The notes below the pieces were generated by a model. It had not been told where the DNA came from. It searched no databases and worked only from the letters and a program-made list of their open reading frames with translations. The position numbers and the translations under genes are program-made. Shown here piece by piece: positions 22,386 to 23,968 of a stretch of 38,424 nucleotides of DNA (the stretch's first letter is position 1; every line of letters starts with the position of its first letter). This stretch comes from Candidatus Uhrbacteria bacterium GW2011_GWC2_41_11. GTDB lineage: Bacteria > Patescibacteriota > Patescibacteriia > UBA9934 > GWF2-40-263. The stretch spans positions 1 to 38,424 of the forward strand of contig LCAH01000014.1 in NCBI GenBank assembly GCA_000996355.1, read 5' to 3'.

Positions 22386-22415
22386 AGAAAACCCGCTGGA
22401 AGAACTACCAGCGGG
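22386..22415 (-). terminator. intrinsic terminator of the GC-rich minus-strand unit
   Basis: Minus strand CCCGCTGG tagttctt CCAGCGGG TTTTC. Confidence 0.8.
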
Positions 22416-22635
22416 CCTTATCTTGAAATGGAGACCTCTCAAAAAAAACGAGAACTGAGGCCTCCTGTCGGGCGAGGTTGAACGGTTGTTGGTTTTCTAG
22501 GGCGGACGGAGCCCGGGGTGCCGAATTCGATTGTCCGGCTCCGTAGGACTTTTCCTGGTGTGCGACCCAGGAAAGACAATACCTGTCGCACCAGGTTTTT
22601 CGATGAACTACCCAAACTTCGATGGGTACCTCATC

Positions 22636-22650
22636 GATCACCTCCTTTCT
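22636..22650 (-). promoter_or_regulatory. 15-nt extended Shine-Dalgarno sequence
   Basis: Minus strand AGAAAGGAGGTGATC, complementary to the canonical 16S 3' tail GATCACCTCCTTTCT; ATG follows at 22634-22632. Confidence 0.6.
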
Positions 22651-22745
22651 TTACCGGTCACGCGTGGTACAGGCGTGTTTTGCGTAACCGGATTAATTTT
22701 TGGAACAGCGCCAGCGCCCATCATTTGCGACTGGCGCGAAAAAAC

Positions 22746-23087
22746 TCACTCCTGCGGCTGGCTCTGGCTGGCCGCCTTCATGCGGTCCCAGCCATTGTTC
22801 CGGACAGGCTTGGGAACCTTGACCGGGTTGTCCTCAGCGCCACCCTTTACCCATCCGCCCTCGAAAATTCGAGCGGCGGGCACGGCGGGCTGACTGGTTT
22901 TCATCCCGTCAAGAATCTTGCGGGCATCTTTCGATGCCGACGTCCGAACGAGACGTTCGGCCACAGTCTCGGCCGGACGACCGACGTTTGCCCGCTGCTC
23001 GGCCTGACGAGCCTTGCGAACAGCCTCGAACTCGGCCTGGCGGCGCGTGGCCTCGGCAAACTGATCCGCGTACTTGAACATACGCAT
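22746..23087 (-). CDS. small charged coiled-coil-like hypothetical protein
   Basis: MRMFKYADQFAEATRRQAEFEAVRKARQAEQRANVGRPAETVAERL...; GGAG 7 nt upstream of the ATG. Confidence 0.6.
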   Translation of the reverse strand: MRMFKYADQFAEATRRQAEFEAVRKARQAEQRANVGRPAETVAERLVRTSASKDARKILDGMKTSQPAVPAARIFEGGWVKGGAEDNPVKVPKPVRNNGWDRMKAASQSQPQE

Positions 23088-23623
23088 CTCAGCACTCCGA
23101 ACCTCGCCGACTTAACCACCCGGTCGAGCTTCTCCCGCATGGTGCCGAAGTCGGGCGTGGCGCCGTGATCGGCGTCGTCGAGGTCTTTGCAGACCACACA
23201 GGTCAAGGCGGACTTCCGCCAGGCCTGGTGCTTGGCTGCGATCTCAGCCTGTTCGGCATCAATCTTGGCCTGTCGTGCCTCGGCTTCAGCCTTGCGCTCG
23301 GCCTCGATGGCTTCGCGCGCTGCACGCTCTGCCGTTCGCTTCTCGAGCTGGGCAAGAGCGCTAGAAAGGGTAAACTTATAGCCCTTGTCCCAAAGCCCGT
23401 TCTGACCCACGCAGCGTTTGCAGACTGCCTGCGCGACGACCATCTCGGCCGTGAGATCACGCATCGAGACCCCAGCAGCCTCGGCGATTTCCTCAAATTT
23501 TGGAACCATAAAATTGGTTCCTTCCGCCTTATATCCACACACCGTACAGGTGTGCTTGGCGGAAGTGGCAGTCTCGGTCCCTGCGGTCGCGGTCGTCTGG
23601 CCGTTGGTCTGATCCTTATTCAT
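22901..23623 (-). CDS. zinc-ribbon plus Ala/Glu/Arg-rich coiled-coil hypothetical protein; C-terminal ~65 residues probably out of frame
   Basis: SD GAGGAG before ATG 23623; MNKDQTNGQ...CTVCGYK...CKRCVGQ...LTCVVCKDL. After about 23115 the product reads as low-complexity R/S/P sequence overlapping the next ORF. Confidence 0.6.
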   Translation of the reverse strand: MNKDQTNGQTTATAGTETATSAKHTCTVCGYKAEGTNFMVPKFEEIAEAAGVSMRDLTAEMVVAQAVCKRCVGQNGLWDKGYKFTLSSALAQLEKRTAERAAREAIEAERKAEAEARQAKIDAEQAEIAAKHQAWRKSALTCVVCKDLDDADHGATPDFGTMREKLDRVVKSARFGVLRCVCSSTRISLPRPRAARPSSRLFARLVRPSSGQTSVVRPRLWPNVSFGRRHRKMPARFLTG

Positions 23624-23690
23624 TTTTAACTCCTCAAAACGCTGGGTTCGCTCCCAGCAAGCAGAGAACATCTACCGAACTTCAGGAGGA

Positions 23691-23901
23691 TATTCCTCCC
23701 ACGATTCTGAAGGTGATTTTCTTTTGCAAGAAAATCCCTAAGGAATCCAGTGACCTGTTGCAAGAACCGGTATAGATTCCAAGAATATCAGGCGTATGAA
23801 GGCAGCTAGTGCAAGCACCAGGGACCTTCATTTGATATTCCTATCCGCTTTCTCAGTGAAGAGAAGGCGGGCTCTCTCCCCTCAGAATCGTGGAAGAAAT
23901 A
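23691..23901 (-). ncRNA. candidate multibranch structured leader RNA
   Basis: 20-bp closing stem (18 Watson-Crick + 2 G.U in minus-strand RNA) enclosing four hairpin arms; three share CTTGCA in the loop region. Confidence 0.65.
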
Positions 23902-23939
23902 ATGTTTTATAAAAAATTGTTCCTTATCTTGATGAATAC

Positions 23940-23968
23940 ACTTTACCAAATTTTTAACTTTTTGTCAA
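23940..23968 (-). promoter_or_regulatory. sigma70-type promoter for the minus-strand unit
   Basis: Minus strand TTGACA, 17-nt spacer, TAAAGT. Confidence 0.6.

Follow-up and report, generated by a model that had tools for sequence, protein, structure and literature searches.

We find that positions 23691-23901 of the window, by which we mean the whole 38,424-nucleotide stretch analysed here, encode a structured RNA on the minus strand, and that it belongs to a conserved family of such RNAs in Candidatus Uhrbacteria (Patescibacteria). The copy in the window matches the family covariance model, R2, and carries a GGAGGAGAGAG-type closing strand together with the two arms, P2 and P3, that recur in its homologues. 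A sequence-only reading of this DNA had proposed a multibranch RNA here, novel unless it matched a known Rfam family. In that respect it holds, as nothing reaches the gathering cut-off at the RNA locus, and an Rfam 15 scan of the window returned two tRNAs only, with no match at the locus even up to E 5. At the homologous loci the sole matches were to plant miRNA models; they fell on a hairpin beside the RNA and scored far below cut-off. No description of the family was found in the open-access full-text literature, and one may exist elsewhere. By sequence and structure, the family appears to be previously uncatalogued and a new RNA class, possibly one with a known function.

Read as minus-strand RNA, 23901-23691 adopts a multibranch fold in which the minimum-free-energy (MFE) structure and the centroid coincide, at -99.5 kcal/mol. 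The mean for 200 dinucleotide shuffles is -58.9 (sd 4.8), and none of them folds as well (z -8.4 and -8.2 in two folding runs). This is the structure drawn in the sequence-only reading. Its 20-bp closing helix is contained in a 23-bp helix (23901-23879/23713-23691), and the four inner arms that it described all appear in the MFE fold. The plus strand of the locus folds more weakly (-86.7, z -6.6), without the outer part of the closing helix. The minus-strand orientation argued for earlier is also confirmed by the homologues: over 41 consensus pairs in 33 sequences, reading as minus gives 114 G.U cells and just 20 A.C cells, a bias that settles which strand the RNA is on; the TTGACA-17-TAAAGT promoter has the same orientation. 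The features of the locus are as follows.

23963-23968, minus strand: -35 box TTGACA of the predicted RNA promoter (sequence, promoter scan; a similar promoter lies upstream of most homologues)
23940-23945, minus strand: -10 box TAAAGT, after a 17-nt spacer (sequence, promoter scan)
23691-23901, minus strand: whole structured RNA, multibranch, closed by the 23-bp helix (MFE and z; R2 cmsearch match at 23723-23890, E 7.9e-20, the window copy being one of the model's 33 training sequences)
23879-23901, minus strand: 5' strand of the closing helix (fold; the helix covaries across the family)
23872-23881, minus strand: family signature strand, GGGGAGAGAG in the window copy and GGAGGAGAGAG in the consensus (near-invariant in alignments A4 and A5)
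23845-23870, minus strand: arm P1, variable in the family and absent from some second copies (fold, alignment)
23781-23842, minus strand: arm P2, GAAUAUCAAAUG...CAUACGCnnGAUAUUC, conserved core (fold, homologue comparison, covariation)
23742-23780, minus strand: arm P3, UCUAnACCG...AGGUCACUGGAU, conserved core (fold, homologue comparison, covariation)
23715-23736, minus strand: arm P4, an insertion private to the window copy (fold; not found in homologues)
23691-23713, minus strand: 3' strand of the closing helix (fold)
23641-23658, minus strand: hairpin GCUGGG/CCCAGC and then GUUUUG, lying between RNA and gene; by sequence it weakly resembles a terminator
23630-23635, minus strand: Shine-Dalgarno sequence GAGGAG of the downstream gene (sequence)
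22901-23623, minus strand: GC-rich orphan ORF, about 60% GC against 39% in the region, with two CxxC pairs

Here and throughout, promoters and terminators are consensus matches. The expected transcription start is near 23933, some 30 nt ahead of the helix. The orphan ORF begins with an ATG at 23623, downstream of the RNA, the small hairpin and GAGGAG; its product belongs to no Pfam, NCBIfam or PADLOC family, and no homologue was found in 96 relatives. Over the orphan gene as a whole (22746-23623, minus strand), the coding signal shifts frame near 23100, between ORFs 23671-22901 and 23087-22746, which may reflect a frameshift, a sequencing error or recoding. Beyond the gene, 22395-22745 on the same strand folds better than its shuffles (z -4.5) and may hold a second structured RNA; it contains a Shine-Dalgarno sequence, an ORF of eight codons, several hairpins and an intrinsic terminator.

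A BLAST search with a 231-nt DNA query found weak but real relatives in three sister-genus genomes. The parts common to these and the window are GAGAGAGC, GAAUAUCAAAUG...CAUACGCnnGAUAUUC and UCUAnACCG...AGGUCACUGGAUnCCUU. The covariance model built from the four sequences, R1, matches 54 of the 73 genomes of the order, Candidatus Uhrbacteria, and R2, built from 33 sequences with the window copy among them, matches 64, with E down to 1e-40. R2 matches are present in 32 of 34 genera and in 55 of 59 high-quality genomes, the other four giving none; the genomes are mostly metagenome-assembled. A genome usually has one to three copies, some of them in tandem 150-190 nt apart, and the window's genome has one. 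We take the order to be assigned to class ABY1. A sample of 390 genomes of the class yielded only three R2 matches outside the order, and 295 genomes sampled across the phylum yielded two, both inside it and none outside. Weak DNA matches at L009, L011, L012 and L013 in relatives, and at L002, L005 and L006 in the window's genome, turned out to be short fragments, with no family member at those places.

The sequence-only reading had staked its structure on compensatory changes in homologues, and these are found in most pairs. In the 33-sequence alignment 29 of the 41 pairs have changed on both sides and 93.6% of cells pair; the covariation is 0.532, against 0.199 +- 0.010 in shuffles (0 of 500 as high) and at most 0.157 when the structure is slid along the alignment. 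We also aligned 20 sequences that had not been used for the model, taken from f3 and f4, from G001, a genus-mate of the window, and from other orders. There the covariation is 0.663 against 0.218 +- 0.013 and 37 of the 41 pairs have changed on both sides; fitting this alignment to the model biases it towards the structure, but the paired changes themselves are in the sequences. Judged from these alignments, the RNA structure is under selection.

From the same comparisons, what the family conserves is the GGAGGAGAGAG closing strand along with arms P2 and P3. The consensus closing helix is about 20 bp long, and on its inner 5' strand, GGAGGAGAGAG, GGAGG is paired with CCUCC and AGAGAG is unpaired. 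P2 and P3 are conserved, and so are their ACGCnn bulge and CAC internal loop. One pair of the apical P2 stem, a G.U wobble adjoining a G-C, is almost invariant (32 of 33 and 20 of 20 sequences; columns 87/111 of alignment A5 and 118/127 of A6), whereas its neighbours covary freely, a pattern that suggests specific recognition of the wobble. Mutual information gave no convincing pair for a tertiary contact, the clearest extra pairs being additional pairs of P1.

Arm P4 lies outside the family consensus, and the repeated loops are equally peculiar to the window. Its three CTTGCA loops exist as described (plus-strand TGCAAG at 23725-23730, 23759-23764 and 23810-23815), but among 37 family members the motif is absent from 34, occurs once in two and occurs three times in the window copy only. 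We therefore reject a CUUGCA-based function, whether as a sponge of the CsrB/RsmY type or as a kissing-loop assembly. Loops elsewhere in the family are of the ordinary UUCG, CUUG or GCAA types.

In 22 genomes from four families the RNA occupies a fixed slot between holB and the gene of a TrmB-type regulator, in most cases preceded by a near-consensus sigma-70 promoter. The order is glyS-frr-BNR protein-holB (one way), the RNA, and then trmB-glycosyltransferase-mreB-DUF4012 protein, with families assigned by Pfam. Conservation in nearly every relative, usually at a fixed spot, suggests an important function for the RNA. The window copy sits outside the usual slot, between rnhB and tig and upstream of the orphan GC-rich gene, and copies in G015 and G033 are also found elsewhere. 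GC-rich ORFs often take up 1-5 kb of the slot; third-position GC in them is mostly 0.7-0.95, and their proteins reach the cut-off of no Pfam, PHROGs, NCBIfam or PADLOC family. Islands of raised GC (55-70%, GC3 mostly 0.7-0.95) with fast-evolving orphan ORFs lie downstream of the RNA at 22450-23680 in the window, at 8500-13500 in L015, and in L049, L050, L051, L055, L056 and L066. Several of the island ORFs have CxxC pairs and some encode small single-TM proteins. We considered a small hydrophobic toxin of a type I toxin-antitoxin pair as the downstream product and rejected it, as single-TM peptides occur in some loci and not as a rule.

The sequence-only reading called this RNA a leader. The description suits the window and most copies in family f1, where the first ORF with a Shine-Dalgarno sequence follows on the same strand, mostly about 45-350 nt past the RNA, but it fails in four genomes. 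In G055, G071, G057 and G058 about 30-215 nt separate the end of the RNA from a convergent trmB, and no real ORF has room there. In G071, TTGACA-17-TATATT stands 86 nt upstream of the RNA and an intrinsic terminator follows directly after it. Conversely, the holB|trmB slot of the window's own genome (G000:C1:144800-146316, L155) has no RNA of the family. That slot still has a TTGACA promoter, and one of its small orphan ORFs encodes a hydrophobic segment. With RNAs lacking genes in four genomes and a gene slot lacking the RNA in another, RNA and genes are separable both ways.

Upstream of the RNA, most f1 genomes have a near-consensus TTGACA-17-TATAGT promoter, often with an extended -10, then a short GGGGAGAGAG element, and then an intrinsic terminator that ends about 30 nt before the RNA. 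The purine-rich, GGA-containing motif GGAGAGAG recurs in this leader element and in each tandem copy, and such recurrence of a GGA-type motif still allows for a protein-binding RNA. At 22 of 22 loci the longest stretch complementary to the motif of the same leader, located in or near the terminator loop, exceeds the shuffle mean (5.6 versus 4.1 nt on average), with P below 0.05 individually in a minority of loci and the loci being related. The upstream element and terminator of f1 could form an attenuator, which we regard as a lead.

Taken together, these observations lead us to lean, by a modest degree, towards a model in which the RNA is itself the functional product, trans-acting or forming a ribonucleoprotein, and frequently a leader to fast-evolving orphan genes as well. 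A strong predicted sigma-70 promoter would drive this noncoding RNA, which would contact a protein or partner RNA through the unpaired, invariant AGAGAG and through the conserved internal loops in P2 and P3. Transcription would in many genomes run on into the fast-evolving GC-rich orphan genes, making the RNA their leader too. The GGGGAGAGAG element of family f1 and the terminator, whose loop tends to complement the motif, might attenuate the amount of both the RNA and the genes. No conserved gene for a partner protein adjoins the RNA, and at most f1 loci a same-strand ORF with a Shine-Dalgarno sequence follows without a clear terminator in between, the arrangement expected of a cis-leader, which counts against an RNA acting in its own right, as do the four high-quality genomes of the order that give no match.

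The main competitor is that the RNA is a cis-regulatory leader, riboswitch-like or protein-binding, which controls an orphan GC-rich operon and is kept while the proteins change fast. The close same-strand ORFs with Shine-Dalgarno sequences at most f1 loci, the tandem RNA copies upstream of one operon and the attenuator-like element upstream would all fit such a leader. However, the RNA is kept in the four genomes without space for a real ORF, and between RNA and ORF there is no conserved expression platform (terminator or sequestered start site). There is also no conserved regulated gene, the downstream proteins being in no known family, and the recurrent terminator lies upstream of the RNA, which places the RNA on the regulated side. 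Because the RNA occurs without genes, the slot genes occur without the RNA, no linked gene is conserved and the terminator is upstream, a product in its own right is favoured over a pure cis-leader, which we consider rather unlikely.

It is improbable that the RNA belongs to a mobile or phage-derived element as a structured end, a packaging RNA or an antitoxin RNA. The GC-rich orphan-gene cargo and the displaced copies of the window, G015 and G033 are what such an element might leave, but one slot is common to 22 genomes of four families, and vertical inheritance in that slot without element genes is largely what is seen. Phage and plasmid collections hold no similar DNA, the sole pattern match on a viral contig (L148, 10.4 bits) is a chance one, and the scanned proteins include no PHROG or PADLOC function and no integrase or transposase. 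The window's genome, moreover, has one copy only.

We give very little credence to a divergent universal RNA (SRP RNA, 6S RNA, tmRNA or RNase P RNA) missed by Rfam models, even though the family is near-universal in the order and RF00169 and RF00013 each match 0 of 25 order genomes, as the locus gives no Rfam match to any of the four up to E 5, the family is missing from nearly all other orders in the class and phylum, for which these housekeeping RNAs are equally necessary, there is no conserved GNAR loop as in SRP domain IV, the P2 and P3 loops being variable, and the fold is a multibranch loop and not the long 6S rod with its central bubble. The SRP RNA of those 25 genomes is unaccounted for by RF00169, the small SRP RNA model.

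Beyond the order, the pattern GGAGGAGAGAG, 105-135 nt, CCTCC occurs in 22 of the 390 class genomes, compared with about 4 for the reversed pattern. Loci L112, L113, L117, L122, L131 and L132, from other families of the class, fold into a multibranch RNA with a GGAGGAGAGAG closing helix and different arms, and some outsider loci have a second motif copy and a terminator upstream. The pattern hints at a superfamily of GGAGGAGAGAG-helix RNAs. With R2, the pattern matches in WOR-3, Sinomicrobium, Lachnospiraceae and Reinekea reach 12.8 bits at best or get no score, and we put them down to chance.

Going further than the favoured model of an RNA product in its own right, we tentatively raise the possibility, which we would sooner doubt than accept, of a lineage-defining trans-acting RNA of Patescibacteria. 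It would have an invariant GAGAGAG docking strand, an autoregulated attenuator that sets the leader motif against the terminator loop, and a place in a wider GGAGGAGAGAG-helix superfamily with a core cellular function. If this is true, it would be a new class of RNA serving a core cellular function in bacteria that have had almost no study at the molecular level. Little is known of noncoding RNAs in the Candidate Phyla Radiation, and the present family is near-universal in an order with genomes of about 1 Mb. With the structure model, predicted promoter and genome list in hand, expression can be checked in public groundwater metatranscriptomes, and the partner can be sought by pulldown.

Several known systems share some of these properties. 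Like tandem-aptamer riboswitches, the Uhrbacteria RNA lies 5' of ORFs, is multibranched, occurs in tandem copies and has conserved internal loops, but it has neither a conserved regulated gene nor a platform and is gene-less in some genomes. The order of promoter, tandem structured RNA and gene recalls type III toxin-antitoxin loci, which pair short tandem repeats (ToxI) with a ToxN-family endoribonuclease; here the RNA is about 150-200 nt long, and the seven to ten downstream proteins gave no PADLOC or Pfam match. As in the sponge RNAs CsrB and RsmY, a short purine-rich GGA motif, GGAGAGAG, recurs in the leader and the tandem copies. In this family, however, it lies in the closing strand and not in hairpin loops, the CUUGCA loops are not conserved, and there is one complex multibranch fold in place of many simple GGA hairpins. 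The GOLLD, ROOL, OLE and raiA-type RNAs are conserved and complex, are not tied to one downstream gene and were first found by comparative genomics. The Uhrbacteria RNA differs from them in having no Rfam sequence or structure match, and in being about 200 nt long, chromosomal and confined to one Patescibacteria order and its close kin. As with those RNAs, it is conserved and complex, has no single fixed downstream gene and is recognised by comparison between genomes.
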